A stretch of 36,263 nt of DNA from a virus: positions 1 to 36,263 of the IMG/VR virus record IMGVR_UViG_3300046751_000632, one strand, 5' to 3'. The number at the start of each line of letters is the position of its first letter. Positions within the stretch are counted from its first letter, which is position 1. A model generated the notes under the pieces. That model was not told the origin of the DNA. It made no database searches and saw nothing but the letters and a program-made list of their open reading frames with translations. This document shows positions 1 through 36,079 of the stretch, in pieces. The translations under genes were made by a program, and so were the position numbers.

Positions 1-51
1 GACGGTAACAATCTTGGTTCATTGGCAGACTTTACTGCTGCAATGGCCTAA
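1..51 (+). CDS. 3' end of a truncated small late gene
   Basis: The window opens in an open frame that reads DGNNLGSLADFTAAMA and stops at a TAA at 49-51; its start lies outside the window. The DGNN stretch resembles the YDGTNW end of the small repeated module seen in the 673-921 gene. The gene left unfinished at 36263 encodes the first half of that same module, so both fragments may belong to one gene interrupted by the window boundary. Too little remains to assign a function. Confidence 0.5.
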   Translation, partial: DGNNLGSLADFTAAMA

Positions 52-67
52 CACTTGAGTTTGCTTA

Positions 68-259
68 ATGAGTGCGAAAGGTAAAAAAAGAGATACATCG
101 TCTCTAACTTTTCGTCTCACAAGCTCGCAAAAGAAGGAGGTAGCTGGGATCGCTCATACGCTCGGTCTCAGCTCCTCCGCTCTTTTACAATCCTGGGTAA
201 CCCGTATTCTGAATAACATGAACGGACGGGGTGACCACGATCAACAGCTAAGAGACTAA
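68..259 (+). CDS. Small ribbon-helix-helix-like DNA-binding protein
   Basis: This 63-residue basic protein has a short beta-like segment (SLTFRLTSSQKKEV, about residues 12-25) followed by two predicted helices (AGIAHTLGL, SSSALLQSWVTRILN). This is the size and layout of Arc/MetJ/CopG-type ribbon-helix-helix repressors. Such proteins dimerise through the N-terminal strand and bind short inverted repeats. The next intergenic stretch holds a promoter-like sequence flanked by an imperfect inverted repeat, consistent with local or autoregulation, although that link is inferred. It is the only regulator-like DNA-binding protein I recognise in this integrase-encoding phage. The fold is judged from pattern alone. 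Confidence 0.6.
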   Translation: MSAKGKKRDTSSLTFRLTSSQKKEVAGIAHTLGLSSSALLQSWVTRILNNMNGRGDHDQQLRD

Positions 260-271
260 AAACGACACACT

Positions 272-330
272 TAGTAGGTAAGTCATGCATCTTGACAGTA
301 TATGTTTTAAGAAGTACACTTAACCTACTA
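272..330. promoter_or_regulatory. Imperfect inverted repeat flanking a promoter (operator candidate)
   Basis: TAGTAGGTAAGT at 272-283 is matched by ACTTAACCTACTA at 318-330, whose reverse complement is TAGTAGGTTAAGT: 12 matching positions with one inserted base. The roughly 34-base centre contains a sigma-70-like promoter. The long spacer and lack of a following T-run argue against a terminator. The adjacent ribbon-helix-helix gene is a natural candidate ligand, by inference. Confidence 0.4.
292..320 (+). promoter_or_regulatory. Sigma-70-like promoter
   Basis: TTGACA (292-297, perfect -35 consensus) is followed after exactly 17 bases by TACACT (315-320, four of six -10 positions). The next gene begins at 353. 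In this late region most transcription would be expected from the phage RNA polymerase, so a host-type promoter here is notable. It has not been demonstrated. Confidence 0.45.
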
Positions 331-352
331 CACTTTTACTATATTAAATATT

Positions 353-673
353 ATGAGACTTCTCGGACTAGAAAAAAAGACGTTGCTTTCATCCGTTACT
401 TCATCGGGAGCGGGTAGCGCATTCGCAGTCGAGCGTTCAAAAGGTTGGACTTTTGTTATTGAATCGGATTCCGTGTCTAGCGGAGCGACTGTCGCGGTTG
501 AAGCATACATAGGCAATGGATGGCGGACGATTGATAGCAGGGCTATAACATCTTCAGGTAATATTATGATACGCGATGCTGACGGTCATTATGAAAAGAT
601 CAGGGCTTCGGTATCAAATCGAGTGGACGGTACTTACAGCGTATATGCTACCGGTACTGTTGCTTCCCTTTAA
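353..673 (+). CDS. Small beta-rich protein, probably virion-associated
   Basis: This 106-residue protein is not firmly recognised. It is rich in Ser, Val, Thr and Gly with alternating hydrophobic residues (GWTFVIESDSVSSGATVAVE, about residues 31-50), the look of a small beta-sandwich such as head-decoration or neck proteins. There is no signal peptide or membrane span. Its TAA shares a base with the ATG of the next gene at 673, so the two are probably translationally coupled. Its place between tail-appendage genes and terminase suggests a structural role, but that is inference. Confidence 0.6.
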   Translation: MRLLGLEKKTLLSSVTSSGAGSAFAVERSKGWTFVIESDSVSSGATVAVEAYIGNGWRTIDSRAITSSGNIMIRDADGHYEKIRASVSNRVDGTYSVYATGTVASL

Positions 674-921
674 TGTCATTAGTAGCCGTCGCTTTACCGC
701 CTCCTTCAAACGTTGAGGCATCGAGTGAGTTTGTCGCTCCTCAATTCGGTACAAACTTTCCGTTGGATCTGTTTGATGCTACCTTCCAGGCGGGATACGA
801 CACTCAAGCGAACATCGAAGCGAGAACAGGCGACGCTGTAGGCACGATCTTAATGGCCTCTGATGTCGTTCGTTTATATGTTTACGACGGCACTAATTGG
901 CAATATTATACAGGGGTATGA
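673..921 (+). CDS. Small protein with C-terminal NIxART...LYVYDG module
   Basis: This 82-residue protein has a variable N-terminus and a C-terminal module running from NIEARTGDAVGT to LYVYDGTNWQYY (about residues 47-79). The same module occurs in the 35843-36037 protein, and its first half occurs in the truncated protein at 36080. Similar short segments are common near the ends of marine phage tail or fibre-associated proteins, so a tail appendage role is possible. The ATG overlaps the upstream TAA, and its own TGA overlaps the ATG of the small terminase at 918. Confidence 0.6.
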   Translation: MSLVAVALPPPSNVEASSEFVAPQFGTNFPLDLFDATFQAGYDTQANIEARTGDAVGTILMASDVVRLYVYDGTNWQYYTGV

Positions 922-1160
922 AAAAACGAGAACAATTAGAAAATCTACAGGTTTTACTCGCCGATACCTATCGTGAGATTATATCGACTATGGATCTTGA
1001 CGACCCTAATGCGGCGGTCTTAAACGGAGCTAGGCAATTTCTCAAGGACAACAACATCATTAGCGTCACTGAGAAGACATCGCCATTGGGTAAGCTTGCA
1101 GATGTATTACCCTTTGACGATTCTCCCGAAGACAAAGAAGCGATTAGACAGTCGCAGTAA
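918..1160 (+). CDS. Terminase small subunit (DNA maturase A)
   Basis: This 80-residue protein lies directly upstream of the large terminase, with its stop overlapping the next ATG at 1160. T7 gp18 has the same position and a similar length (89 aa). The segment AAVLNGARQFLKDNNI (about residues 38-53) matches the helical motif common in podovirus small terminases. These proteins recognise the genome junction and help the large subunit during packaging. The ATG at 918 overlaps the preceding TGA; a more upstream in-frame ATG at 897 lies inside the previous gene and is less likely. Confidence 0.85.
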   Translation: MKKREQLENLQVLLADTYREIISTMDLDDPNAAVLNGARQFLKDNNIISVTEKTSPLGKLADVLPFDDSPEDKEAIRQSQ

Positions 1161-2848
1161 TGAGCGTTCAACACGAAGTTCCAGCGGAGCTTCAAGACTT
1201 CCGTAACTTCCTATTTGTCTGTTGGAAACATTTAGGACTGCCTGATCCAACGCCGTTACAATACGACATATCACAGTACCTTCAGAACGGCCCTAAACGC
1301 GCCATAGTGATGGCTTTTCGTGGCGTTGGTAAATCGTGGATATGTTCCGCCTATGTCGTTCACCAACTCCTCCTAGACCCATCTAAGAATATACTCGTCG
1401 TATCGGCGTCTAAAACGCGGTCTGATGACTTCTCTACCTTTACGCTTAGGTTGATCCATGAGATCCCGGTATTAGCGTCTTTAAAGCCGCGTGATGGACA
1501 ACGCTTTAGTAAGATCAGCTTTGATGTTGGTCCTGCTCCAGCGTCCCATGCACCGTCGGTTAAATCGTTAGGTATTACTTCGCAGTTAACCGGGTCACGG
1601 GCGGATATAATCGTCGCTGATGACGTGGAGGTAGCGAACAACTCAGCGACCCAAGGAATGCGTGATAAGCTATCAGACCAGGTAAAAGAGTTTGATGCGA
1701 TTATAAAGCCTCTTAAGACCTCCAGGATCTTGTTTCTAGGTACGCCTCAATGCGAGGACTCTATCTACACTAAACTACGGGAGAGAGGCTATGAGACGCG
1801 TGTGTGGCCGTCAGAATACGTCGGGCATAAAAAGAACGACACTATCTATGAAGGAGCCATAGCACCCTTTATAAACGACGCTACAACGGACGACAACATT
1901 GGTAGATCGACAGAACCTTTAAGGTTTAACGATATAGACCTGGAAGAAAGAAAGCTTTCCTACGGACGATCAGGGTACGCTTTACAGTTCCTTTTAAACC
2001 CCCGCTTAAGCGACGCTGATAGATACCCGTTAAAGATTAACGATTTAATCGTACAAGATTTAGACAATGATGTAGCACATGAGAAATACGTATGGGCCAG
2101 CGGCCCTGATCAAGTGATCGACAACATTCCTAACATGGGCTTTAATGGAGACCGTTATTATCGTCCGTTAGAAACCTTAGGAGACATGGTCGATTACACA
2201 GGTTCCGTCATGTCTATCGATCCTAGTGGTCGAGGAAAAGACGAAACAGCTTATAGCGTCGTTAAAATGTTAAACGGGTTTTTATTTGTCCACGATTGTA
2301 ACGGAATAAAAGGAGGTTATGGAGACAATGTTCTGAAAGAACTATCCCTTATAGCGAAACGCTTTAAAGTAAACGAAGTAATTATCGAGTCTAATATGGG
2401 AGACGGAATGTTTACAGAGCTTTTAAAGCCCGTTATAAACGCGATTTATCCCGTTACAATAAATGAAGTTAGACATCACATTCAAAAGGAAAAACGTATT
2501 ATAGACACCCTTGAACCAGTTCTTAACGCGCATAGGTTAATCGTCGATCCTATCGTCGTTAAGAACGATTTCAAGAGTATTGTTTCTTACCCTATAGAAA
2601 GTCAGAACCGTTACGCTTTATTCTATCAGTTATCGCGTATTACTCGCGAAAAAGGCAGTCTGTTACAAGACGACCGCTTAGACGCTCTTTCTATCGCCGT
2701 TAATTACTGGACGGAACAAATGGCGATTAATGCGGATCTTAAGATAAAAGATAGAAAAGAAGATCTTATTCAAGAGGAGTTAGAAAAGTTCATGAACAGC
2801 GCGTTTAATATTTCGAATAAAGCGAAGCTACAAACGACATGGTTCTAA
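1160..2848 (+). CDS. Terminase large subunit (DNA maturase B)
   Basis: This 562-residue protein is a T7 gp19-type packaging motor (T7: 586 aa). The N-terminal ATPase has Walker A FRGVGKS (residues 53-59), Walker B ADIIVADDVE (148-157) and a coupling motif LFLGTPQ (191-197). The C-terminal RNase H-like nuclease has acidic residues in MSIDPSGRGKDE (D354), the IIES strand (E410) and DDRLDAL (504-510). It pumps concatemeric DNA through the portal and cuts it at genome ends. In T7-like genomes this gene lies near the right physical end, which helps orient this map. Confidence 0.97.
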   Translation: MSVQHEVPAELQDFRNFLFVCWKHLGLPDPTPLQYDISQYLQNGPKRAIVMAFRGVGKSWICSAYVVHQLLLDPSKNILVVSASKTRSDDFSTFTLRLIHEIPVLASLKPRDGQRFSKISFDVGPAPASHAPSVKSLGITSQLTGSRADIIVADDVEVANNSATQGMRDKLSDQVKEFDAIIKPLKTSRILFLGTPQCEDSIYTKLRERGYETRVWPSEYVGHKKNDTIYEGAIAPFINDATTDDNIGRSTEPLRFNDIDLEERKLSYGRSGYALQFLLNPRLSDADRYPLKINDLIVQDLDNDVAHEKYVWASGPDQVIDNIPNMGFNGDRYYRPLETLGDMVDYTGSVMSIDPSGRGKDETAYSVVKMLNGFLFVHDCNGIKGGYGDNVLKELSLIAKRFKVNEVIIESNMGDGMFTELLKPVINAIYPVTINEVRHHIQKEKRIIDTLEPVLNAHRLIVDPIVVKNDFKSIVSYPIESQNRYALFYQLSRITREKGSLLQDDRLDALSIAVNYWTEQMAINADLKIKDRKEDLIQEELEKFMNSAFNISNKAKLQTTWF

Positions 2849-3053
2849 ATGACTTCTTGAAATTCTTCTTTCTTAATCGTGTCGTTTATAACGAAAGAGT
2901 TTGTACACGCGTATATAACGGATTATAACGATTTACAACCATTACAGGCGACATGTCAACACTAGAGTTGTAAGTCGTTGTTTATAACGTAAATAAAATC
3001 GCGTTAAAAACAAGCTAGTAAAATTTAAACTTTAACTTTAATATAGTCGTAAT

Positions 3054-3242
3054 ATGGATATCGACGAACAAACAGACTCCTTCTTATTCGATCTACAAAA
3101 CGTAGTACATCGTTACAGACAAGAATATGACCTTAATCACGCGACTATAGTCGGTGTTATCGAAATGCTTAAACTTGATTACATGACCGATGACTCGATC
3201 TATTTCGACGCTGACTTCCTCGATGACAACGAAAGAGACTGA
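3054..3242 (+). CDS. Small acidic hypothetical protein
   Basis: This 62-residue acidic protein has a predicted helical centre (FLFDLQNVVHRYRQEYDLNH) and ends in an Asp-rich tail. Short proteins of the same shape are common after the terminase in marine podoviruses, but I know no function. A 205-base leader at 2849-3053 precedes it. That leader is AT-rich and carries repeated TTTATAACG words but no confident promoter. The 3' end overlaps the next gene. Confidence 0.6.
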   Translation: MDIDEQTDSFLFDLQNVVHRYRQEYDLNHATIVGVIEMLKLDYMTDDSIYFDADFLDDNERD

Positions 3243-3426
3243 AGAAGATCTTCCCATCATTAGAGTCGTCAAAGAAACGAAAGTAACCTGTTACGATTGG
3301 GAACTCGAGATGGACGACGATACCTTCGCCATGATGGTCAAGATGGGAAAGGAAGAAGCGACCGACCAGGACTTCGTTAATATCGCGATGTTAGCCGGAC
3401 TTAAACATTATTTAGACAAAGAATAA
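3223..3426 (+). CDS. Small acidic hypothetical protein
   Basis: This 67-residue acidic protein starts at the ATG at 3223, inside the end of the previous gene. An in-frame ATG at 3190 would lengthen it by 11 residues and cannot be excluded. It contains a beta-like start (DLPIIRVVKETKVTCYDWEL) and a helical C-terminus (NIAMLAGLKHYLDKE). I do not recognise the family. Its position between terminase and membrane-protein genes is its only functional clue. Confidence 0.6.
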   Translation: MTTKETEEDLPIIRVVKETKVTCYDWELEMDDDTFAMMVKMGKEEATDQDFVNIAMLAGLKHYLDKE

Positions 3427-3436
3427 CCACACACAT

Positions 3437-3754
3437 ATGAAACTAGACGATAATACCCAGATCAAAGCGAACGCTGCTTTCGCCGCTAAACTCGTCGTTG
3501 GGATCTGTGTAGCCGTCTGGTCATACTCTGTCATCGTTAATCGTATATCCACGCTGGAGGTCGAAATAATCCGCCTTAAAGACGATATACATATGAATAG
3601 TGAATTTCGTATTAAATGGCCTAGAGGCGAACTAGGCGCGCTCCCAGACGACGCTCAACAAAACATGAGACTCGACTTCTACGAAAGAGAAATAGATAAC
3701 CTTAAGAAAATCGTCGATGAACTACGCTTTAAAGAACTTAAGAATGAGTTGTGA
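3437..3754 (+). CDS. Membrane protein with coiled coil (i-spanin or holin candidate)
   Basis: This 105-residue protein has one membrane segment (about 14-36, containing LVVGICVAVWSYSVIV), then a charged coiled-coil region split by a PRGELGALPDD stretch. A single N-terminal anchor followed by a periplasmic coiled coil is the topology of inner-membrane spanins. Its place beside the terminase matches T7, where gp18.5/18.7 spanins lie between the terminase genes. It could instead be a holin-associated protein. The stop overlaps the GTG start of a tiny hydrophobic gene. Confidence 0.65.
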   Translation: MKLDDNTQIKANAAFAAKLVVGICVAVWSYSVIVNRISTLEVEIIRLKDDIHMNSEFRIKWPRGELGALPDDAQQNMRLDFYEREIDNLKKIVDELRFKELKNEL

Positions 3755-3870
3755 GCGAGTTTCAAACGGAGATCAGGTGGATCATAGCTATGGCTCTCTT
3801 CTTCGTTGAACGCGACGTTATCATCGACACCATGTTCGCTCTTATAGACATCGTGTTTAGCCTGTTATAA
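3751..3870 (+). CDS. Tiny hydrophobic protein with GTG start (holin-like)
   Basis: A GTG at 3751 overlaps the preceding TGA and opens a 39-residue frame ending in TAA at 3868-3870. The product is mostly hydrophobic (WIIAMALFFVE and ALIDIVFSLL), giving one or two short membrane segments separated by RDVIID. The overlap and context suggest translation coupled to the spanin-like gene. Very small membrane proteins here could be holins, but no family is recognised. It is the last + strand gene before the reverse-strand island. Confidence 0.5.
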   Translation: MSEFQTEIRWIIAMALFFVERDVIIDTMFALIDIVFSLL

Positions 3871-4359
3871 AGGGCGTAATTACCGTATTTACCACGCGTT
3901 TAAGGCTGTTCGTGTTAAAACGACGATTATGCCTGATTAAAAACGCGTTTAAAAAGTTTAGGTAAAAAAATCTGAAGCCCCTTATATACGGTGCGTACCC
4001 GTTCATCCCCCCATCGGGCCGCCAAAAATAGCAAGAGGGGTGGGGGGTATGCCGCATCGATCGCATAAGTACCTGATTACCAACGCTTGGCAACGCATAA
4101 TAGATGCGATTGCAGCCCGTTTGGGCCGCGATTGAAACGAGATCGCGTGTATTTGTGTTTACAGGTGTTTTTTGCGTCGTCTTTAAACGCCGCCCTAACG
4201 CCGCATTCAATCGTATGGATTAAGCAGCCGTCAAGGCAGCCAGGACCGCCGTTTCAATCTCATTCCATACCATAATAAAGGCAGCGATAAGGTCCGCCGT
4301 TATAATCGCGACCAGGTCCGCCGTTATATGTAGACACAGCAAATGAAATGAGCGGGCAC
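3871..4359. other. Non-coding left flank of the reverse-strand island
   Basis: I see no convincing gene here. The stretch holds the palindrome-centred 13-mer AAACGCGTTTAAA (3941-3953, repeated at 6187-6199). It also has an inverted repeat CCCCCCA/TGGGGGG (4007-4013 with 4041-4047) and, near its right end, three AGGNCCGCCGTT repeats. In a T7-like genome this is where the right physical end or terminal repeat would be expected, so packaging signals may lie here; no such site can be identified by eye. Confidence 0.5.
4242..4328. repeat. AGGNCCGCCGTT repeats on a 24-base period
   Basis: Copies begin at 4242 (AGGACCGCCGTT), 4290 and 4314; the last two share the identical 15-mer AGGTCCGCCGTTATA. 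The starts are 48 and 24 bases apart, both multiples of 24, so the copies would lie on the same helical face only roughly. This arrangement resembles an iteron or operator cluster just past the island's terminator. Confidence 0.55.
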
Positions 4360-4393
4360 AAAAAAGCCGCCGTTCACGGTTGCAAACGGCGGC
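4360..4393 (-). terminator. Rho-independent terminator of the minus-strand operon
   Basis: Read on the minus strand, GCCGCCGTT (4393-4385) pairs perfectly with AACGGCGGC (4374-4366) across a 10-base loop and is followed at once by six T residues (4365-4360). A nine-pair GC-rich stem plus a U-tract is a textbook intrinsic terminator. It lies 25 bases past the stop of the last minus-strand gene, which strongly supports a real leftward transcript. Confidence 0.88.
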
Positions 4394-4418
4394 CAGGGGT
4401 TGCGATTACTTCGCGCTT

Positions 4419-4556
4419 TTAATCCATAGCGTCGAGCATCAGTATTATGATAGTGAACCAAAGCGCGGTCCCGATGATACCAATTGCGGCGGCTACAATT
4501 TTGTCATAAGTAGACATTACTTGGAACCCGTTGTCATCAAATTTTTTATTTTTCAT
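4419..4556 (-). CDS. 45-residue single-span membrane protein
   Basis: The frame starts at ATG 4556 and stops with TAA at 4419. An N-terminal charged stretch (MKNKKFDDNG) precedes one long hydrophobic segment (about residues 20-41, with IVAAAIGIIGTALWFTIIIL) and an acidic end (DAMD). An internal ATG at residue 14 (MSTYDK) is an alternative start. It is the last gene before the terminator, 10 bases below the GP88-type gene. The leader is AT-rich with no Shine-Dalgarno sequence. No family is recognised; small membrane proteins in such operons can be effectors or anchors, but that is speculation. Confidence 0.6.
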   Translation of the reverse strand: MKNKKFDDNGFQVMSTYDKIVAAAIGIIGTALWFTIIILMLDAMD

Positions 4557-4566
4557 ATTGTATTTA

Positions 4567-5274
4567 TTAATTAAGGATAAAACCTGATTGATCTTTTTTA
4601 GCGCTGCCTTTGGCTTTCAGGCCGACTATATGGCCGGCTGGGTCCAGGAAGCGCAAATCGTTTATATCGCCGTCTAATACCGGCAGCCCTTGCCATTCTT
4701 CCGGCAGCTTCTCGCGAAATACGGCGGCAACGTTCGCCCCGCGTTTTGCCAGGCTTGCGGCTTTAGCACCGTTTTGCTCGTCGCGGCTGAATGTCAGCGA
4801 ATAATTTTCAGGCAGCTTGCCGGCGAGATATTTTTCGATTCTGTGAGATCCTTTGCTGTAATCATAAAAAGGAACGTGAGGGAAGCGGTCCTGGATACCG
4901 TACTTTTCCCAGGCGACGTCACTTGTACCATTTAATCGCACCGAAAGCCGAAAGCCTTGACTTGCGGACCAAAAAACGGCCTTTTTAATCTCGCTTGCCA
5001 GAATATCGACAAATTGCTGCGGGTCCTGCTCGAATAACTTTGTTTTTCTTAGTCGGCCTTTTTGGACATTGGACATTTTGCCGCGGCCTTGGTTAAAAAG
5101 ACAAGCTTGTTTGCAAGCGCCGGCCCAGGGGCATAAATTCTTCGTGCCTAGTTGACCTGCCGGGACCAAGTAAAGAATTGCTGTAAGCCAGCCCATCTTT
5201 TGACCTTTCCTGGTCTTAGGATCTCCGCCAATGGCTAATAGGTCGAACCGTTTCGATATTGTTTTGCTTTTCAT
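4567..5274 (-). CDS. GP88-family protein (Cys-motif protein of unknown function)
   Basis: This 235-residue protein resembles the phage/plasmid GP88 family, named after a mycobacteriophage gene product, for which I know no established function. Its hallmarks are a Cys cluster (LCPWAGACKQACL: C48, C54, C58) followed by GRGKMSNVQKGRLRKT, a central VRLNGTSDVAWE (about 112-123), and a C-terminus LRFLDPAGHIVGLKAKGSAK then GFILN. Three closely spaced cysteines suggest metal or Fe-S binding, by inference. Its ATG overlaps the upstream gene's TGA (ATGA), so it is coupled to the 65-residue gene. It is the central recognisable member of the reverse-strand island. Confidence 0.8.
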   Translation of the reverse strand: MKSKTISKRFDLLAIGGDPKTRKGQKMGWLTAILYLVPAGQLGTKNLCPWAGACKQACLFNQGRGKMSNVQKGRLRKTKLFEQDPQQFVDILASEIKKAVFWSASQGFRLSVRLNGTSDVAWEKYGIQDRFPHVPFYDYSKGSHRIEKYLAGKLPENYSLTFSRDEQNGAKAASLAKRGANVAAVFREKLPEEWQGLPVLDGDINDLRFLDPAGHIVGLKAKGSAKKDQSGFILN

Positions 5275-5468
5275 GATTTTTCTATAAATTTGTTGGATTC
5301 AATAATTTGAACGTATTGAGGCCGAAGATTCGGGTAAGCCATTTTGGCCATTCTCTCAGCGGTCCTTTTATCTTCGTATTGATATAAGTAACCGTCGGAC
5401 CGGCGAACGTTGGCCCACTGGCCTGACTCTTCGTCGAATATTCTTATTCTGTAGTAAATCGTTTTCAT
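5271..5468 (-). CDS. Small 65-residue hypothetical protein in the reverse operon
   Basis: The chosen start is ATG 5468, because GGGAG lies nine bases upstream on the minus strand, the clearest ribosome site in this operon; longer in-frame extensions run into the preceding gene. The product (MKTIYYRIRIFDEESGQW...) is a compact alpha/beta protein with KRTAERMAKMAYP as a likely helix. Short proteins of this general kind occur in phages and plasmids, with no known role. It overlaps the GP88-type gene by four bases, suggesting coupled expression. Confidence 0.65.
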   Translation of the reverse strand: MKTIYYRIRIFDEESGQWANVRRSDGYLYQYEDKRTAERMAKMAYPNLRPQYVQIIESNKFIEKS

Positions 5469-5469
5469 A

Positions 5470-5880
5470 TTAATAGACTCCCAATGTTGAAAGGTCAGCC
5501 CGGTCCTTTTCGAGCGCTGCCAATAAATTTGCAAGCGGCGTGAAGATCTTGTCAATGGCCTGAAATATTTCTTTCTGCCGCGGTTCCCAAAATAGCATAG
5601 TTTCAATCGATATCTTGTAAGGATTTGCATTGGCTATTACTGACCAATAAAGCGCCGTTGCAAGCGCGGCCTTTTCTTCTTCTTCAAAGGTCTTTTGCTT
5701 GTTTTGAGAATAACGGCGGGCCACGGTCGCTTTGCTAACTAGCCAGCCTTCCTTGTTAAATAACTCAGGCCACACGGCGGCGAGATCTTCGCCCGTTATA
5801 TCTTTTGGCAATCTTTCCGCCGTAAGCTTAGGAAAAGCGCCGGCAATCATGTTGATAATTTTAAATCTATTTTCTTTCAT
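5470..5880 (-). CDS. 136-residue hypothetical protein in the reverse operon
   Basis: The start at ATG 5880 follows the TAA of the upstream 59-residue gene (5884-5882) by one base; the longer in-frame start at 5919 would overlap that gene. The product is mostly helical. KEGWLVSKATVARRYSQNKQ (about residues 43-62) could be a small DNA-binding helix pair, but this is weak. The C-terminal half is amphipathic (DKIFTPLANLLAALEKDRAD). No family is recognised. It ends one base before the next gene's ATG, as expected in an operon. Confidence 0.65.
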   Translation of the reverse strand: MKENRFKIINMIAGAFPKLTAERLPKDITGEDLAAVWPELFNKEGWLVSKATVARRYSQNKQKTFEEEEKAALATALYWSVIANANPYKISIETMLFWEPRQKEIFQAIDKIFTPLANLLAALEKDRADLSTLGVY

Positions 5881-5881
5881 A

Positions 5882-6061
5882 TTATAGTTCTTCGCTTTTA
5901 ACCTCGAATTTGAAACCAAGCGTTTTAATTTCCTCGACCGCGTGCGGCGGCAAGGTCTTTTTATTTATCAGGCGAGCAAAAGCCGCAGATAGTGGGCAGT
6001 TAGGGTAAACCAGACGGTTCCCATATTTTGTTTCTATTTTTACAAGTAACGTATCATTCAT
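5882..6061 (-). CDS. 59-residue hypothetical protein, first gene of the reverse operon
   Basis: The frame runs from ATG 6061 to TAA at 5882. The protein (MNDTLLVKIETKYGNRLVYP...) has a beta-hairpin-like start, then CPLSAAFARLINKKTLPPHA and a final strand (LGFKFEVKSE). No clear Shine-Dalgarno sequence precedes it. It is followed with one-base spacing by the 136-residue gene, so it probably heads the leftward transcript. A palindrome GCAACCGTTGC at 6123-6133 lies about 60 bases upstream and could be an operator. The function is unknown. Confidence 0.6.
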   Translation of the reverse strand: MNDTLLVKIETKYGNRLVYPNCPLSAAFARLINKKTLPPHAVEEIKTLGFKFEVKSEEL

Positions 6062-6230
6062 TTTTATTTTGGGTTTAGCGGGGCTTAATTGCGACCGCTG
6101 GATCTCTTAAAATAGAAAAGCCGCAACCGTTGCAAGTCTTTTTTTAAATAATTTCTTTCAATGAGCCATTGCAAGGCACCAGGGGTAAACGCGTTTAAAT
6201 CGACCAAGTGCACCAGCTGCGGGCCTGGTA

Positions 6231-6290
6231 TAAATCGACCGTTTCCACCGTTTCCATCGACCGATTAAAAGCACCGTTTCCACCGATTTT
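6231..6290. repeat. Three ACCGTTTCC iteron-like repeats
   Basis: The 9-mer ACCGTTTCC occurs at 6238-6246, directly again at 6247-6255, and at 6273-6281. ACCGAT or CGACCGAT words lie between and after the copies. Three copies in 44 bases, two in perfect tandem, suggest a protein-binding array such as a replication iteron or operator cluster. Confidence 0.55.
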
Positions 6291-6356
6291 GTTTTGTGGC
6301 TAAATGCACTAAATACACCGATTATGGCCGCCTCGCGCGTAGCCCAGGCCCGTAAG

Positions 6357-6400
6357 TTTTACGTGTACGTGTTCGTGAAATGTTTTACGTGTTCGTAAAA
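6357..6400. repeat. TTTTACGTGT direct repeats with an inverted-repeat end
   Basis: TTTTACGTGT occurs at 6357-6366 and 6383-6392, 26 bases apart, and GTGTTCGT is also repeated nearby. The second copy forms TTTTACG-TGTT-CGTAAAA (6383-6400). It lies about 70 bases before the first early gene, so it could regulate early transcription. There is no T-run placement to make it a terminator. Confidence 0.45.
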
Positions 6401-6472
6401 AAATAGCTTGCATCGGGGGTTATGTTTCTCATATGTGGACATTTTAACCATTAACAACAAGAGGAGATATGT

Positions 6473-6628
6473 ATGACACCTGTAACACAATTAGAAACCG
6501 CTGAGATACGCGTTTTAATCGCCAGCTATAACCGTATGCGTCGTCGCATCATCGACAATAACGCCGCCAGAGAACGATTGGAGTCGTTAAAGGACGAGCT
6601 AATAGCGAGGGGGGAGTTAGCGGTATGA
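6473..6628 (+). CDS. First early gene, 51-residue helical protein
   Basis: The ATG at 6473 has a strong GAGGAG ribosome site at 6461-6466. The 51-residue product (MTPVTQLETAEIRVLIASYN...) is charged and helical, with many Arg residues (MRRRIIDNNAARERLESLKD). No family is recognised. Its stop overlaps the ATG of the next tiny gene (ATGA at 6625). As the first gene after the genome-end region it is in the position of T7 class I genes, which often act against host functions; that role is not shown here. Confidence 0.6.
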   Translation: MTPVTQLETAEIRVLIASYNRMRRRIIDNNAARERLESLKDELIARGELAV

Positions 6629-6696
6629 GCATGGTGACTTTTGCTTCGATTATACTCATCATGGTATTTATCTTTGCGATGCTTTATTCGGACTGA
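6625..6696 (+). CDS. 23-residue membrane mini-protein
   Basis: This ATG-started frame overlaps the previous TGA. It encodes only 23 residues, almost all hydrophobic (FASIILIMVFIFAMLY), forming a single membrane segment. Its TGA overlaps the next gene's ATG in a TGATG arrangement. The chained overlaps are the main support for it being translated. It is unrelated in sequence to the other small membrane proteins here. Confidence 0.45.
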   Translation: MSMVTFASIILIMVFIFAMLYSD

Positions 6697-6824
6697 TGAG
6701 CGATAACGATCTATGTATATGGTGTGGATTGGAACTTCAAGGTCGTGACCGCGAGGGGAACATCTGTGCTGAATGTATAATGAGAGAAAATGAAAAGGAG
6801 AACAACGATGAAGATAACGATTGA
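6696..6824 (+). CDS. 42-residue zinc-ribbon-like protein
   Basis: The product contains two Cys pairs, CIWC (residues 7-10) and CAEC (24-27), spaced as in a small zinc ribbon, followed by an acidic tail. It starts at the ATG overlapping the 23-residue gene's TGA and ends inside the next gene, which starts at 6808. Small early zinc-binding proteins often touch host RNA polymerase or other proteins, but no specific role can be claimed. Confidence 0.55.
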   Translation: MSDNDLCIWCGLELQGRDREGNICAECIMRENEKENNDEDND

Positions 6825-6951
6825 ACACTACGGAAGAACCGTGACTTGGGAAGGACCGGAAGAGTCCGACTTATACGATGTGATGGACGCGTTTAAAGGC
6901 TTGCTACGCATCTTGGAGTATGTCATTGACGACAACGATGAGGACCAGTGA
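6808..6951 (+). CDS. 47-residue small early protein
   Basis: The ATG at 6808 follows a GAAAAGGAG ribosome site about eight bases upstream. The product (MKITIEHYGRTVTWEGPEES...) is acidic, with two strands then a helix (LYDVMDAFKGLLRILEYVI). Its TGA at 6949-6951 overlaps the ATG at 6951 of the frame that overprints the methyltransferase, while its own 3' end overlaps the methyltransferase start in the third frame. All three + frames are therefore in use around 6920-6951. Confidence 0.6.
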   Translation: MKITIEHYGRTVTWEGPEESDLYDVMDAFKGLLRILEYVIDDNDEDQ

Positions 6952-7819
6952 TGTGGGTCGTACCGAAAACATTATCAGCTTTTGCTCCGGCTACGGCGGT
7001 CTTGAAAACGGAATCCGACGAGCTGGTGTCGATGTTAGGACAGTCTGTTACTGTGAACGGGAAGCTTATGTCCAAGCAGTATTGGTCAAGGCGATTGAAG
7101 AAGGAAGGATGGATAGCGCGCCTATATGGTCAGATGTTGTCACATTCCCAGCAGAAAGCTTTCGAGGAAAGGTGGACGGAATCACTTGTGGGTATCCATG
7201 CCAACCGTTTAGTTCCGCAGGAAAGCGAAAGGGAGAAAAAGATCCTAGACACTTGTGGCCCTACATCCGAGAACACGCCAGGACAATTGGAGTTCGATGG
7301 ATTTTCGCAGAGAATGTCGAAGGACACGCCACGCTTGGACTCTCCACAGTCATCAGCGATTTGGAAGAAGATGGTTTCAAGGTGGAGGCAGGAATATTCA
7401 GCGCGGAGGAAGTTGGCGCTCCTCACCGAAGGAAACGCGTCTTTATCTTGGGCCACACCACAAGCGAGCGATTATGTCGAGGGAGCCAGGACGAGCTTAG
7501 AGAGCAATCAGAAATGTCTAGGGAGGGATCTCAAGATGTGGCCGTCGCCTCGAGCGGGGAATCCCGGGAGTCGCAAGCCAGGGACGGGTGGCAAGGTACT
7601 AGCGGAAGAAGCGAAGAGACACGCTGGCCTTCTCGACCAGGAGAGCAGCAATATGGATGGGAGTCACCGAGAACAGTTGTCACCCGATTGGGTGGAAAGC
7701 CTCATGGGTCTGCCCATAGGAACAACCGACTTAGGCTCCTGGGGAACGGAGTTGTACCACAAACAGCAGAATTAGCTTGGCAAGTATTATCGAATCGTTT
7801 ACACAACACACAACCATGA
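6920..7819 (+). CDS. C5 cytosine-specific DNA methyltransferase (Dcm type)
   Basis: This frame encodes 299 residues from the ATG at 6920; an in-frame ATG at 6938 is an alternative. It has the C5-methylase motifs: I FCSGYGGLENG (21-31), IV GYPCQPFSSAG with catalytic C94, VI ENVEGH (131-136), VIII GAPHRRKRVFILG (166-178) and the terminal LLGNGVVPQTAELAW (273-287). The region between VIII and the C-terminal motif, where target recognition lies, is Ser/Arg/Glu-rich and low in hydrophobics, which fits a sequence constrained by a second frame. It likely protects phage DNA from host restriction. Its TGA overlaps the lipoprotein ATG at 7816. Confidence 0.9.
   Translation: MSLTTTMRTSDVGRTENIISFCSGYGGLENGIRRAGVDVRTVCYCEREAYVQAVLVKAIEEGRMDSAPIWSDVVTFPAESFRGKVDGITCGYPCQPFSSAGKRKGEKDPRHLWPYIREHARTIGVRWIFAENVEGHATLGLSTVISDLEEDGFKVEAGIFSAEEVGAPHRRKRVFILGHTTSERLCRGSQDELREQSEMSREGSQDVAVASSGESRESQARDGWQGTSGRSEETRWPSRPGEQQYGWESPRTVVTRLGGKPHGSAHRNNRLRLLGNGVVPQTAELAWQVLSNRLHNTQP
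6951..7775 (+). CDS. Overprinted gene inside the methyltransferase, TPxASD/GLPxG family
   Basis: This 274-residue frame lies wholly within the methyltransferase gene, in a different + frame. It starts at an ATG overlapping the 47-residue gene's TGA, with GAGGA at 6940-6944 as ribosome site. The protein has features of a family I recall from methyltransferase-bearing phages: SKQYWSRRLKKEGWIARLYG (41-60), RMSKDTPRLDSPQSSAIWKK (121-140), WATPQASD (167-174), WPSPRAG (197-203) and SPDWVESLMGLPIGTTDLG (244-262). In some one-chain methylases TPxxSD and LMGxPxG segments sit in the target-recognition region, so a partner or specificity role is plausible. A chance frame would not be expected to carry such motifs. 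Confidence 0.7.
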   Translation: MWVVPKTLSAFAPATAVLKTESDELVSMLGQSVTVNGKLMSKQYWSRRLKKEGWIARLYGQMLSHSQQKAFEERWTESLVGIHANRLVPQESEREKKILDTCGPTSENTPGQLEFDGFSQRMSKDTPRLDSPQSSAIWKKMVSRWRQEYSARRKLALLTEGNASLSWATPQASDYVEGARTSLESNQKCLGRDLKMWPSPRAGNPGSRKPGTGGKVLAEEAKRHAGLLDQESSNMDGSHREQLSPDWVESLMGLPIGTTDLGSWGTELYHKQQN

Positions 7820-7974
7820 AAAAACTACTACTATTATTAACGCTATTCGCAGTCGCGTCTTGTACGACGACTAAAACCGCAATATGGGACACCTGTCCAT
7901 CGGACCTTGGCTACTCCTGCCCTGAAGACGGAAGCCCTTGCCCGTTTTGTAACGACGAAGATGACGACTCCTAA
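7816..7974 (+). CDS. Small Cys-rich lipoprotein
   Basis: This 52-residue protein starts at ATG 7816, overlapping the methyltransferase TGA. It has a typical lipoprotein signal: MKK, a Leu-rich core (LLLLLTLF) and the lipobox AVASC with the lipid Cys at residue 16. The mature part is about 36 residues, contains four more cysteines (CPSDLGYSCPEDGSPCPFC) and ends in an acidic tail. Early phage lipoproteins elsewhere block superinfection by masking receptors, which would suit a temperate phage. An outer-membrane spanin is less likely given the early location and Cys content. The function is inferred. Confidence 0.65.
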   Translation: MKKLLLLLTLFAVASCTTTKTAIWDTCPSDLGYSCPEDGSPCPFCNDEDDDS

Positions 7975-8119
7975 TCCATTTGACAACGGGTTGTTTTGGT
8001 GCGAGGGATGTCAGGTATTTGATCAACGCCGTTACCTTCGCGAACACGACGGGTGCTTCGACAACGACGAAGACGACGACAACAACAATAACAACGAAGA
8101 AAACGAAAACGATGAGTAA
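7961..8119 (+). CDS. 52-residue protein with putative zinc-binding residues and acidic tail
   Basis: The start at ATG 7961 overlaps the end of the lipoprotein gene. The N-terminal half has CEGC then a HDGC (CEGCQVFDQRRYLREHDGC), resembling a minimal zinc finger. The C-terminal half is a low-complexity Asp/Asn/Glu run encoded by repeated GAC/AAC/GAA codons. Its TAA lies inside the start of the dNMP kinase gene. No family is identified. Confidence 0.5.
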   Translation: MTTPNPFDNGLFWCEGCQVFDQRRYLREHDGCFDNDEDDDNNNNNEENENDE

Positions 8120-8582
8120 ACTAATAGCTTTAACAGGCCCGAAAGGCGTAGGTAAATCGACCTATGCGAAGTTTGTAGCGGGAGAGAATGGCATAGTAAT
8201 ATCTTTTGCAACGCCGATTAAACAGATGCTGACTGCGATAGCAGGGGATGAGTATATCTTTGGGACGAAGAAGAACGCGATAGTACCGCACCTTGGGGTG
8301 ACAGGACGGTTCCTGATGCAGACATTGGGGACGGAATGGGGACGCGAGACAATCGACCAGGACATATGGGTTAACTCAGTGCGTCGTATGTTAACGAAGA
8401 GCTTCTTCAGTGAGTACACTCCTGTGATCATCGATGACTTACGCTTTGAGAACGAAGCCAAGATGGTACGGGAGATGGGCGGAGAAGTATGGGAGATTGA
8501 TCGTAAGAACTTCTCTCCTGAATCGGATGAACACGTGTCTGAAGCTGGCGTAAAGGCTGTCGATAAGAAAGTCCTGATATGA
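8112..8582 (+). CDS. Deoxynucleoside monophosphate kinase
   Basis: This 156-residue P-loop kinase starts at ATG 8112; upstream in-frame codons belong to a low-complexity overlap. It has the Walker A GPKGVGKS (residues 9-16) and the segment RFLMQTLGTEWGRETIDQDIW (split here as RFLMQTLGTEWGR, 66-78, then ETIDQDIW), characteristic of phage dNMP kinases of the T4 gp1/T5 type. These convert dNMPs from degraded host DNA to dNDPs. IIDDLRFENEA (about 114-124) is the expected following motif. The ATG overlaps the stop of the upstream gene, and its TGA overlaps the next ATG at 8579. Confidence 0.85.
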   Translation: MSKLIALTGPKGVGKSTYAKFVAGENGIVISFATPIKQMLTAIAGDEYIFGTKKNAIVPHLGVTGRFLMQTLGTEWGRETIDQDIWVNSVRRMLTKSFFSEYTPVIIDDLRFENEAKMVREMGGEVWEIDRKNFSPESDEHVSEAGVKAVDKKVLI

Positions 8583-8902
8583 ACGAAGAAGAAGATTTGT
8601 CTTTTTCTAGCGGCGACTTGATGTCGTATGGATCGGAGTATGGACAAGGTGATTGGTTATACTTTGCCAGCGACTTTCCTGCGTATGAAGATGTCGTCAA
8701 AGGCTTTGATAACTTTTGGAATAATACTCAAGTAAAAGAGTTTCCAAAAGATGAGAACGGAAATAACTTGCGTGATGAGAACGGAGAGATAATAGTCATC
8801 CGCACAAACAAACCAAGAAAGCGTTTAAAGACGCAGCTTTATTTCCACAACCACAAAAAAAGAAAAGCAAAAACGAATAATGAAAGTACTGAAATTAGCT
8901 GA
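8579..8902 (+). CDS. Hypothetical protein, acidic N-terminus and basic C-terminus
   Basis: This 107-residue protein starts at an ATGA overlap with the kinase stop. The first 60 residues are acidic and aromatic (YGQGDWLYFASDFPAYEDVV); the middle repeats DENGNNLRDENGE. The C-terminal part is Lys/Arg-rich (RKRLKTQLYFHNHKKRKAK), as in nucleic-acid-binding tails. No family is recognised. It overlaps the integrase start by 23 bases. Confidence 0.6.
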   Translation: MNEEEDLSFSSGDLMSYGSEYGQGDWLYFASDFPAYEDVVKGFDNFWNNTQVKEFPKDENGNNLRDENGEIIVIRTNKPRKRLKTQLYFHNHKKRKAKTNNESTEIS

Positions 8903-9716
8903 CGAAGTATACAAGAGACACTGGCGCGGGTGTAAGGATGGAATGGGATTGCTAAACAATGCGGAGGATGTATGTAAGCGTCTTGGGAACGACGTTGAGA
9001 TCCGCGAAGTAAACGAACGAAGGATCGACGACCTGGTGCTGGGTTTAGAAGACGATAACAAGGCGGCAGGCACGATTAACAAGCGATTGGCGGCGCTATC
9101 AAAGATGTTACGCTTCGCTTACAGACGCGGTTATATCGAGCGTATGCCCGTGATTGAACGGAAGAAGGAACCGCAGGGTCGTATGCGTTGGTTGAGCGAG
9201 GAGGAAGAGTATCGTATGCTAGGTAAGTTTCATGCGATGGGTAAGCCTTTCATAGCTGACTTCTGCAAGATACTCATTGATACCGGAATGAGAACAGGTG
9301 AGCTGTTTAAGTTGCGGGGCAGGGATGTCGATATAAGCGGGGTAAACTTCCAACGCATGATCCATTTGTGGGAGACAAAGAATGGTAAATCGAGATCTAT
9401 CCCGGTTACTAATCGTGTGTACGAGATATTATGTCGTTATAAAACATCGAACGACGCTTTATTGTTTACCTTTAAGCAACACACTTTAAATCGTGCTTGG
9501 AAACAGATGAAGACTGAGCTTGGCATGGGCGACGATAAAGAGTTTATACCGCATTGCTTGCGTCATACTTGTGCGTCCAGGTTGGTACAACGAGGAGTAG
9601 ACATTCGTGTAGTACAGGAGTGGCTCGGTCATAGCTCGATACAAACGACGATGAGGTACGCCAAGATCGCGCCTAAGAATCTAGCAGATGCACGAGATGT
9701 TTTGGAAAGACATTGA
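8880..9716 (+). CDS. int: Tyrosine recombinase (phage integrase)
   Basis: This 278-residue protein has a SAM-like N-terminal core-binding region and a C-terminal catalytic domain. Visible catalytic residues are Arg138 (GMRTGEL), H225-x-x-R228 (PHCLRHTCA), H251 (LGHSSIQTT) and nucleophile Tyr260 (MRYAKI). It would integrate phage DNA at a host attachment site, making lysogeny possible. Integrases just upstream of the RNA polymerase are known in several marine T7-like phages. I could not find an attP core or tRNA-like segment nearby (9717-9752 shows none). No excisionase is evident. Confidence 0.93.
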   Translation: MKVLKLADEVYKRHWRGCKDGMGLLNNAEDVCKRLGNDVEIREVNERRIDDLVLGLEDDNKAAGTINKRLAALSKMLRFAYRRGYIERMPVIERKKEPQGRMRWLSEEEEYRMLGKFHAMGKPFIADFCKILIDTGMRTGELFKLRGRDVDISGVNFQRMIHLWETKNGKSRSIPVTNRVYEILCRYKTSNDALLFTFKQHTLNRAWKQMKTELGMGDDKEFIPHCLRHTCASRLVQRGVDIRVVQEWLGHSSIQTTMRYAKIAPKNLADARDVLERH

Positions 9717-9752
9717 CAAACCTCATATTAACAGATTTTATCAAGCTAACGA

Positions 9753-12161: not shown

Positions 12162-12179
12162 AAGGAGATAACAACAACC

Positions 12180-12794
12180 ATGAATACATTAACCACACCT
12201 ATAGGTACAGCTCGTTATTGCTGGCTTACTAATCCTTCAAAGGGACAATACGACGGAGAGCACGGTCTTTACCGTTGTGAATTAGTCCTGGAGAAATCAG
12301 ATTGGGAGGCATTAAAAACTCAGCTAAAGCCTATCTATGACACAGCTTACGATGCAGAATGCAAGAAGCAAGGTAAGGAACTAAAGAAAGCAGAAACGCC
12401 TTTTAAGATCGACGCTGAAGGCAATCACTACATCAAGACGAAATTGAAAGCAGGAGGTATTGATCGTAATAATAAACCTTACACGCTATCAGTCGCTCGT
12501 CACGATTCACAAGGTAACCCAATCACTGATGACACTATTGTCGGAGGAGGCAGCCGGATAAAACTAGGAATTAAAGTACGTCCTTGGTTTGTCGGACAAC
12601 ACGGATTTGGAATCACACTTGAACCACACGCTGTACAGATTATTGAGTTAGCAGAGGTTTCAGGCGGTAGTAAATTCGACTTCACATCAGAAGAGAACGG
12701 TTACACACATGGCGGAGAGAGTTACGAGTTCTCCGAAGAAAAACCTAATGCCGAAACGAAAGAGGAGAACAAACCGCTCGCGGCGGACTTCTAA
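12180..12794 (+). CDS. Single-stranded DNA-binding protein (gp2.5-like)
   Basis: This 204-residue protein has the position and form of T7 gp2.5. An OB-fold-like body is followed by a Glu-rich C-terminal tail ending in ADF. In T7 the acidic tail with terminal Phe contacts the polymerase and primase-helicase. A strong AAGGAGATAACAA ribosome site precedes the ATG, indicating high expression. Its 3' end overlaps the endonuclease I gene by about 47 bases in another frame. Confidence 0.88.
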   Translation: MNTLTTPIGTARYCWLTNPSKGQYDGEHGLYRCELVLEKSDWEALKTQLKPIYDTAYDAECKKQGKELKKAETPFKIDAEGNHYIKTKLKAGGIDRNNKPYTLSVARHDSQGNPITDDTIVGGGSRIKLGIKVRPWFVGQHGFGITLEPHAVQIIELAEVSGGSKFDFTSEENGYTHGGESYEFSEEKPNAETKEENKPLAADF

Positions 12795-14738: not shown

Positions 14739-14741
14739 ACG

Positions 14742-16613: not shown

Positions 16614-16616
16614 TAT

Positions 16617-17860: not shown

Positions 17861-17864
17861 TATA

Positions 17865-18068
17865 GTGGAAAATTCTGTTGACAGAAAACTACCCGACCTT
17901 AGTAAGGATTTGCTCGACATCTTGGATGCTCGGTTTCCTTCTCGTTGTCCTGATCCTAAAGATAGTGAGCGCGAGATATGGATGAAGGTTGGTCAGAGGA
18001 AAGTCGTAGAGTTTCTACAAGACGTTTACGAAGAACAAAATACAACAATCATTTCAACAAAGGTATAA
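17865..18068 (+). CDS. Small conserved-type protein upstream of the portal, GTG start
   Basis: A GTG at 17865 opens a 67-residue frame four bases after the exonuclease stop. The protein is helical and charged, with FPSRCPDPKDSEREIWMKVG (about 24-43) and FLQDVYEEQN. Similar small proteins sit before the portal in marine T7-like phages; their role is not known to me. It may mark the boundary between replication and virion genes. Confidence 0.6.
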   Translation: MENSVDRKLPDLSKDLLDILDARFPSRCPDPKDSEREIWMKVGQRKVVEFLQDVYEEQNTTIISTKV

Positions 18069-18070
18069 TT

Positions 18071-18280
18071 ATGTGCATGGGCGGCTCAACTCCTCCACCA
18101 CCTCCACCTCCTCCACCACCACCGCCTCCACCTGCGGCGACAGCCGAACGCGTACAGCCTGCTCAAGCTTCCAAACGCGGTGGATCTACGGTTAAACGTA
18201 AAAGAGGTACAGCACAACTTACGCGTCCTTCTATGGGAGGAATGGCTAAGGGAACTGCTGGTGTAAATCTTCCTAGGTAA
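18071..18280 (+). CDS. Proline-rich MCMGG small protein
   Basis: This 69-residue protein begins MCMGGST and then has 14 consecutive prolines, followed by a basic Gly/Thr-rich end (RGGSTVKRKRGTAQLTRPSM). Short MC-GG proteins just before the portal are common in marine podoviruses and probably virion-associated. The poly-Pro run would be expected to stall ribosomes unless EF-P assists. It starts at ATG 18071, a few bases after the previous stop, and ends two bases before the portal ATG. Confidence 0.6.
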   Translation: MCMGGSTPPPPPPPPPPPPPPAATAERVQPAQASKRGGSTVKRKRGTAQLTRPSMGGMAKGTAGVNLPR

Positions 18281-18282
18281 GT

Positions 18283-19845
18283 ATGCATTACGAAACGGCT
18301 CAAAGCCTCTACACTTCGTTAGAGAATACGCGGTGGACATTTCTTGATCGTGCCAGGACTTCATCGGAACTAACCCTTCCGTATGTCCTGCCGCCCGAAG
18401 GTCACGGTCCACACACTAAGTACTACACTCCGTTCCAAGGTATTGGAGCGAAGGGTGTAAACAACTTAGCATCGAAGTTACTTATGGCTTTGCTTCCGCC
18501 TAACGCTCCGTTCTTCCGCTTGGTCATTGATCGGTATGAACTCGACAAAGCGAAAGCTGAGATGGGTGAAGAACAAGGGGAACAGCTACGCACGGATCTC
18601 GAGAAAGCTTTGAGTGAAGTCGAGCGAGCTGTGTCGCAAGAGGTTGAAGTAGAAGCATTTAGAGTAGGAGTTTTTGAGGCGTTAAAGAATCTACTAATTA
18701 CAGGTAATACTTTACTATATCTTCCTGACGAAGGAGGTATGCGAGTATTCCGTCCTGATAGATATGTCGTTAAGCGTGACCCTATGGGTAATGTTACGCA
18801 CATAGCTGTGAAGGAAACGGTAGCTCCAATGATGTTACCTGAAGAAGTAAGACAAGAAGTATATAAAGAGTCCAAAGATAATACATGCGATTTATACACT
18901 TCGATTGTCAGGGAAGATAATAAGTTCTATGTCCAACAGGATGTTAAAGGTATCGTCATTGAATCGTCGAAAGGATCGTATTCTATCGACAAGTCACCTT
19001 GGATACCTTTACGATATACACGTATTGACGGCGAGGATTATGGTCGCGGTATAGTCGAAGAGTACATCGGTGATCTAAAGTCTTTAGAGTCATTAACAAA
19101 AGCTATCGTTGAAGGCTCCGCTGCTGCGGCGAAGGTATTGTTCATGGTTAATCCTAACGGCACAACCAGAGCGAGGACATTAGCGGAAGCGTCAAACGGT
19201 GCAATCGTCCAGGGTTCCGACGGCGATGTATCTGTTCTTCAACTTAATAAGTTCAACGACTTTCGCGTAGCTCAACAGGTCATGGCACAGATCCAAGATC
19301 GATTAAGTCACGCCTTTCTTTTAAACAGCAACGTCGTTAGAGACGCAGAGCGAGTTACCGCCGAGGAAATACGTATGTTATCACAAGAACTCGAGGCGGC
19401 TCTCGGCGGGCTGTATTCTATTTTGTCACAGGAGTTCCAGCTTCCGCTTGTATCGCGTTTGATGGACCGTATGGGCAGGAAGGATCGTCTACCTAAACTA
19501 CCTAAGGACATAGTCAAGCCTACGATTGTAACGGGCGTTGAGGCATTGGGACGTGGTAACGATTTGAATCGATTGGATATGTTCCTGGCAGGAGCGAGTC
19601 AAGTCGTCGGCCCACAAGCTATCGCTGAGTACGTCAATGTAAGCGACTACTTTAAACGCAGGGCAACCGCGTTAGGAATCGAGACCGAAGGTTTGATTAA
19701 GACAGAAGAAGAAATTCAACAAGCCATGCAGCAGGCTCAAATGATGGAGATGGCTCAGAAGTTAGGAGCGCCAGCAATGGGACCCGCTATCAATGCAATG
19801 GCTAACCAACAACAACCACAACAACCAACACAACAAGAGGAATAA
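18283..19845 (+). CDS. Portal (head-tail connector) protein, gp8-like
   Basis: This 520-residue protein (T7 gp8: 536) has the family's N-terminus with RWTFLDRARTSSELTLPYVL and PFQGIGAKGVNNLASKLLMA, and the Gln-rich C-terminal end typical of T7-type connectors. Twelve copies normally form the ring at one head vertex through which terminase packs DNA and to which the tail attaches. It is followed directly by the scaffold gene. Confidence 0.95.
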   Translation: MHYETAQSLYTSLENTRWTFLDRARTSSELTLPYVLPPEGHGPHTKYYTPFQGIGAKGVNNLASKLLMALLPPNAPFFRLVIDRYELDKAKAEMGEEQGEQLRTDLEKALSEVERAVSQEVEVEAFRVGVFEALKNLLITGNTLLYLPDEGGMRVFRPDRYVVKRDPMGNVTHIAVKETVAPMMLPEEVRQEVYKESKDNTCDLYTSIVREDNKFYVQQDVKGIVIESSKGSYSIDKSPWIPLRYTRIDGEDYGRGIVEEYIGDLKSLESLTKAIVEGSAAAAKVLFMVNPNGTTRARTLAEASNGAIVQGSDGDVSVLQLNKFNDFRVAQQVMAQIQDRLSHAFLLNSNVVRDAERVTAEEIRMLSQELEAALGGLYSILSQEFQLPLVSRLMDRMGRKDRLPKLPKDIVKPTIVTGVEALGRGNDLNRLDMFLAGASQVVGPQAIAEYVNVSDYFKRRATALGIETEGLIKTEEEIQQAMQQAQMMEMAQKLGAPAMGPAINAMANQQQPQQPTQQEE

Positions 19846-19848
19846 ACG

Positions 19849-35798: not shown

Positions 35799-35842
35799 TT
35801 CACTAACAAGTGTCGGATTTAACCAATTAATGAAAATAAAAT

Positions 35843-36037: not shown

Positions 36038-36039
36038 TT

Positions 36040-36068
36040 TTGACAATCAATAATCACTAACATAAAAA
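36040..36068 (+). promoter_or_regulatory. Possible sigma-70-like promoter
   Basis: TTGACA (36040-36045) is followed after 17 bases by TAAAAA (36063-36068), four of six -10 positions, just before the gene starting at 36080. A perfect -35 box with correct spacing also occurs at 292. In this AT-rich gap the -10 match is weak. Confidence 0.3.
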
Positions 36069-36079
36069 TATAATCACTA

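Follow-up and report, generated by a model that had tools for sequence, protein, structure and literature searches.

The window, by which we mean the entire 36,263-base virus record IMGVR_UViG_3300046751_000632, comes from a marine T7-like phage. Near its left end, a late-region gene for a 63-aa ribbon-helix-helix (RHH, Arc/CopG-like) protein (68..259, plus strand), which has relatives in 85 contigs, begins 16 bases after the stop codon of a tail gene (49-51). It is followed by a 93-bp spacer and then, on the same strand, by g106 (353..673), which encodes a 106-aa all-β protein whose family is found before the portal gene in relatives, and by its 82-aa partner g82 (673..921). The latter overlaps the gene for the small terminase subunit TerS (918..1160; PF11123, phrog_891), and the large terminase subunit TerL (1160..2848; PF22530) comes next. 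The spacer contains a candidate plus-strand promoter, with the -35 box TTGACA at 292-297 and the -10 box TACACT at 315-320, and an inverted repeat with its left arm (TAGTAGGTAAGT) at 272..283 and its right arm (ACTT-A-ACCTACTA) at 318..330.

Genome layout and the g106-g82 pair

Elsewhere in the window lie the genes for a tyrosine integrase (8880-9716), a single-subunit RNA polymerase (9753-12161), the portal (18283-19845, PF12236), the major capsid protein (21215-22279) and the nozzle protein (22952-25627), and a tail fibre gene was also recognised by profile match. The large terminase bears a T7-type nuclease domain. Its closest counterpart belongs to the uncultured phage MedDCM-OCT-S45-C18 (Ayaqvirus S45C18, AP013544, Autographivirales; 64.5%), followed by those of roseophages (about 59%), LUZ100 (56.1%) and then pelagiphages.

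The integrase is present in four of the 17 records searched, namely the window, G010, G011 and G016, the last of which was reached via its g106 gene. Two records with the RHH gene, G001 (41.8 kb) and G002 (42.3 kb), gave no integrase match, and neither did nine shorter RHH-bearing and two g106-reached records, although absence means little for the shorter ones. The preliminary description had supposed that the locus might contribute to lysogeny; since G001 and G002 carry the RHH gene and gave no integrase match, the RHH gene itself is not tied to lysogeny. On the other hand, among the 14 RHH-bearing records, most of the others being fragments, those with an integrase (the window, G010 and G011) are precisely those with the repeat unit. 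In records long enough, the repeat unit has so far been seen only together with an integrase, but its carriers represent one close lineage. A minus-strand gene group at 4365-6061 (59 aa, 149 aa and GP88-like), which ends at a strong terminator-like hairpin (4394-4365), is a candidate lysogeny operon, within which no repressor domain was recognised. All three of its genes are shared with the integrase-bearing G010 and G011; G001 gave no match to them, and G002 gave one to a GP88 relative only.

In G001 and G002, the portal gene immediately follows the g106-g82 pair, whereas in the window the place ahead of the portal gene is empty and the pair is found at 353-921 instead. The small gene of the window that has the portal gene (from 18283) at once behind it (17978..18283, plus strand) gave no significant family match, and we take it to be gp7.3-like. 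The G005 contig ends at g106, which there follows an exonuclease gene. The order RHH-g106-g82 also occurs in L003 and L045, and L004 shows at least RHH-g106. At 72 further g106 loci, drawn from the best 80 of 217, the upstream stretches inspected by eye held the end of another gene and no RHH gene.

The g106 protein of the window has no Pfam or PHROG match, a few of its relatives weakly match PHROGs of unknown function, and tblastn against the phage collection (E up to 1) returned no match. Its structural model is all-β, with seven strands (mean pLDDT 80.5). Foldseek retrieved from the PDB a wide mix of unrelated β-sandwich folds, eight of them at E 0.001 or better, and from BFVD 87 matches at this level, the 50 listed being mostly uncharacterised phage proteins. 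Because these matches are mixed or uncharacterised, the identity of g106 stops at a β-sandwich that is perhaps part of the virion.

The RHH protein and the inverted repeat

The AlphaFold2 model of the RHH protein (mean pLDDT 76.3, pTM 0.50) contains helices at residues 19-32 and 36-51, and no strand is assigned in residues 1-18; the RHH strand is expected only in the dimer. The best Foldseek matches of the model are RHH proteins (CopASO, PutA, CopG, AtaR, AmrZ and, later, Arc), all at E 0.33 or worse. When 24 family members were compared with family profiles, RelB matched 19 (best E 0.0039) and a NikA-like profile matched 12 (best E 0.03), while unrelated families scored similarly weakly; the match to the Arc-like phrog_582 was also weak (E 0.075). 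A sequence search of the PDB gave no RHH match, tblastn against the phage collection (E up to 10) gave no match, and none of 53 pattern matches to relatives in bacterial genome contigs was upheld. In the literature, our search found nothing joining RHH proteins with Autographiviridae. As modelled, the 63-residue protein has an RHH-type fold, which bears out the Arc-like product that had been assigned to the gene beside the promoter. By its position, SLTFRL is presumably the DNA-contacting strand, and it is unchanged in L010, a contig without the repeat site.

The inverted repeat is carried by six contigs: the window, L002, L005, L006, L033 and L050. Among them, the RHH gene differs at 29 of 192 positions (two contigs being partial), as compared to 3 of 93 in the spacer (269, 270 and 278) and 5 of 321 in g106. 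This contrast between RHH alleles that differ from phage to phage (190-250) and an almost constant unit behind them suggests recombination. The change G278A, which breaks one pair of the left arm, is found in L006, L033 and L050, the same three contigs that have a different RHH allele, and no compensating arm change occurs among the six.

The 12-position repeat of the preliminary description was recovered as eight perfect pairs (272-279/323-330) plus AAGT (280-283) paired with ACTT (318-321) past the bulged A322, giving 12 pairs with one bulged base. The promoter had been placed between the two arms. The arms do flank the boxes, but the promoter is not wholly enclosed, because the right arm covers the last three bases of the -10 box and the predicted start site.

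With ungapped arms, the best 12-position score is 9/12, which is equalled or beaten at 10 of 52 promoter-like sites (this site included) and at 59 of 300 random places. The view taken from this test, that the repeat is wholly ordinary, was dropped after RNA folding revealed the longer arm with one bulge, and the repeat was retested with gaps. Counting the bulge (score 10), nine stems of this quality occur in the window, where 20 shuffles average 4.85 ± 1.9. When the 93-bp spacer was shuffled 2000 times, an equal repeat appeared in 45 cases (about 2%). Folding of 257-352 as RNA gave z = -2.75, one of 200 shuffles being equally good. The corresponding value was -3.04 in L002 and -1.68 in the L006 variant (-14.0 kcal/mol; 11 of 200 shuffles equally good). 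The repeat is thus real and locally unusual, yet not exceptional within 36 kb.

Paired arms were found on the plus strand of the window, G010 and G011, and in none of the seven other RHH records (G001, G002, G003, G005, G006, G007 and G008). The half-site TAGTAGGT is observed more often than a second-order model predicts in all five records tested (window, 3 vs 0.68; G001, 5 vs 1.69; G002, 6 vs 2.32; G005, 5 vs 1.30; G007, 3 vs 1.46). However, 17 of its 22 copies lie within genes, and two of the three intergenic copies of G001 represent a single site, present at both of its redundant-looking ends. We did not count TAGTAGGT as evidence of a genome-wide site for the RHH protein. By eye, TACACTTAACCTAC/TACACTTTTACTAT at 315-342 looks like a decayed 14-bp tandem duplication that created the right arm.

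The candidate promoter and the spacer in relatives

The sequence TTGACA-17-TACACT is present as had been described. It matches the consensus at 10 of 12 positions and, with a 17-bp spacer, has the form of a σ70-type promoter (two hexamers, 16-18 bp apart), from which transcription would start at about 326-328. Since promoter-like sites are not over-represented in 1-20000 (23, as compared to 32.2 ± 5.7 in shuffles), a 10/12 match alone is not above chance; within the 93-bp spacer, such a match was reached by a fraction of 0.048 of 500 shuffles. The -35 box is the same in L003, L004 and L045, and the -10 box reads TACACT in L045 and TAAACT in L003 and L004. Between the window and L045, the hexamers are identical at 12/12 positions while the promoter spacer is identical at only 9/17, and between the window and L003 the values are 11/12 and 8/17. 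The exact 29-base promoter of the window was found in five IMG/VR contigs, the same five that bear the repeat.

To place the spacer among relatives, we compared 86 RHH-bearing contigs: the window, 49 from the first search and 36 more among the 80 listed of 85 relatives. In 47 of them, no more than 20 bp separate the RHH gene from TerS. A gap of 80 bp or more behind the RHH gene leads to TerS in 30 others and to g106 in nine. The repeat-bearing spacer occurs in six of the 86, all from one close lineage. Absence of the repeat wherever the gene is conserved had been named beforehand as the outcome that would speak against a regulatory unit, and this is largely what the comparison returned.

A scripted search, which covered 50 of the 86 contigs, detected terminators in 13 of the 14 long TerS gaps and in three of the nine g106 gaps (L003, L004 and L045), the six repeat-bearing spacers yielding none. 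L032, the sole scripted miss among the long TerS gaps, has by eye a terminator-like hairpin that falls outside the rule of the script, and inspection by eye of the 16 long spacers in the other 36 contigs likewise showed hairpins with a T-run.

In six of the seven spacer clusters other than that of the window, a σ70-like match of 9-10/12 was found with its -10 box ending 6-8 nt before the ATG, in most cases downstream of an intrinsic terminator. The exception is L032 (score 7, shuffle fraction 0.403). The window departs from this near-leaderless pattern: its -10 box ends 32 nt before the g106 ATG, which would leave a leader of about 26 bases, and in the near-leaderless test its cluster reached 8/12 (shuffle fraction 0.205). 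Summed over all eight clusters, with the two misses included, the score is 71 as compared to 50.7 ± 3.1, and 0 of 1000 shuffles reach 71, a result that overstates independence because the clusters are related. For comparison, a score of at least 9 is reached by 18 of the 237 gene starts in eight records, and these include some of the sites discussed here. When the promoter was allowed anywhere in the spacer, most long TerS spacers among the 50 contigs gave shuffle fractions of 0.3-0.4 (L042, 0.042; L037, 0.050; L032, 1.0). The promoter signal in the TerS spacers therefore comes from its fixed place before the ATG.

Interpretation of the spacer and related systems

We estimate a probability of about 0.55, from the sequence comparisons, that a host-type promoter in the spacer, at the border between two transcription units, feeds g106-g82-TerS-TerL and that the repeat is incidental or minor. 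The region 260-352 would then separate the tail/RHH transcription unit from the packaging unit, and a promoter for the host σ70-type RNA polymerase within it would drive g106-g82-TerS-TerL. Ancestrally, and in sister phages to this day, an intrinsic terminator would precede a σ70-like promoter with its start site on or beside the ATG of the following gene. In the lineage of the window, g106-g82 would have come to lie in front of TerS, the terminator would have been lost, and the promoter would have gained its leader of about 26 bases; we infer that the pair moved before this lineage lost its terminator. The repeat would be a lineage-specific by-product with a minor role at most, probably a local accident and not a docking site of the neighbouring small protein, and the RHH protein would be the product of a conserved late gene with its target elsewhere. 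Given that the hairpin beats all but one of 200 shuffles, there is room for some function of the repeat, and the proposed role in the timing of terminase expression is possible. From the preliminary description, the RHH fold and a plausible, recurring host-type promoter before the packaging genes are thus retained, whereas the self-contained unit and its link to lysogeny are not.

The repeat could instead serve as an operator: the RHH protein, made late, would bind both arms, whose centres are 51 bp apart, bridge or occlude the promoter, and silence or delay g106-g82-TerS-TerL. Such a role would suit the RHH-type fold of the adjacent gene product and the placement of the arms, which flank the boxes and cover the predicted start site, but a conserved site is not what the six contigs of one close lineage present, and the seven other RHH records lack paired arms on the plus strand. 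The association of G278A with the other RHH allele could be co-variation, yet SLTFRL is the same in L010, which has no site. The excess of TAGTAGGT in all five records is likewise offset by its largely intragenic copies and by the repeated site in G001. We regard an operator as unlikely, although it comes closest to the favoured reading, and its specific version, in which an Arc-like protein on arms 51 bp apart times the packaging genes while arm and repressor allele change together in one lineage, as the least credible of the proposals weighed here.

RNase III cuts hairpins in T7 messages, and the repeat might act as RNA: read-through tail transcripts would form a hairpin at 272-330, which would be cut or would slow ribosomes or polymerase, replacing the terminator of the sister phages. 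The sister contig L045 does have a terminator hairpin at the same place, and the folding of the window and L002 is in keeping with this idea; the weaker fold of the L006 variant, the A+T-rich stem with no U-run directly behind it, and the lack of compensating change among the six contigs make it slightly more doubtful than an operator. A little further down still, we place the suggestion that there is no promoter at all, the boxes being chance letters in an A+T-rich spacer and the late genes being read through from upstream phage-polymerase promoters. The lack of any excess of promoter-like sites in 1-20000 and the 47 contigs with no room for a promoter between the RHH gene and TerS agree with it, but the hexamers and their 17-bp spacing are conserved while the spacer diverges, and the pattern recurs in several lineages.

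Late transcription in T7-like phages is usually attributed to the phage polymerase. The Pseudomonas phage LUZ100, which is T7-like with temperate features, resembles the window in having its integrase near the RNA polymerase in a T7-like order, and it mixes host-type and phage-type promoters, according to the portion of its report considered here (PMC10134795). The same portion places three host-type promoters in the early region and assigns the late genes to phage-specific promoters (PMC10134795). TerS and TerL lie near the right end of the LUZ100 genome, and in the annotated stretch considered no promoter is marked before TerS. The lysogeny regulator proposed there is MarR-like (PMC10134795), and no such protein was matched among the window ORFs scanned. 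Ayaqvirus S45C18 shares with the window the order of a tail-region gene, a small gene, a TerS-like gene and TerL, as well as an integrase before the RNA polymerase. However, its small gene encodes 53 aa with a hydrophobic stretch, is holin-like by eye and not RHH, and ends 5 bases before the next gene, leaving no comparable spacer.

Arc of phage P22, one of the structure matches of the RHH model, sits in the immunity region and acts near its own promoter. In the window, by contrast, the RHH gene is late and closely trails the tail gene, and the neighbouring promoter lies downstream of it, an arrangement at odds with the self-contained regulatory unit that had been proposed. Phage morons are additional genes that sit between two genes neighbouring each other in relatives and bring along a host-type promoter. 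The g106-g82 pair is similar in lying between the RHH gene and TerS, which are at most 20 bp apart in 47 of the 86 contigs, and in having a predicted promoter of its own. It differs in two ways: g106 and g82 are genes of the phage family itself, which G001 and G002 carry ahead of the portal, and no terminator directly follows the pair, g82 overlapping TerS. A 17-bp mycobacteriophage repeat with 34 copies in Corndog, as described in PMC4351075, is a different thing.

In several related marine lineages, candidate host-type promoters at a terminator/promoter border ahead of the packaging genes suggest that the host polymerase may have access to some late genes, and such access would matter for prophage behaviour. 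If transcription were shown, a promoter of the host type at this place would be modestly novel, since LUZ100, as far as the cited portion describes it, has host-type promoters early and phage-type promoters late (PMC10134795). The repeat itself would matter little unless binding were shown.

Several further sites were noted. A sampler for phage-polymerase promoter motifs in 12 intergenic stretches, a thirteenth being too short to include, gave nothing convincing, with a best information of 13.63 from 25 starts on the real set, as compared to 12.26, 13.10 and 13.31 in three shuffled sets with 8 starts each, which is a weaker control. TTTACG-17-TATTAT at 881-917 lies inside the end of g82, 8 nt before the TerS ATG, and could be a coding coincidence. 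TTGACA followed by CACTAACA (36035-36082) stands directly before a small gene at 36080 in seven of eight records (the window, G001, G002, G005, G006, G007 and G008), the eighth, G010, beginning too late to show the site. In G006, this site scores 11/12 as a near-leaderless σ70-type promoter; in the window and G001, the best pair there is another one (9/12). A similar TTGACA...CACTAACA (35778-35810) precedes 35843 in five of the eight records (the window, G001, G002, G005 and G008), with TTGACA within the preceding gene. Finally, in G001 (L139-L141), the stretch after the large terminase gene recurs near the opposite contig end (around 915 and 40604), and for this reason the ends of G001 look redundant.
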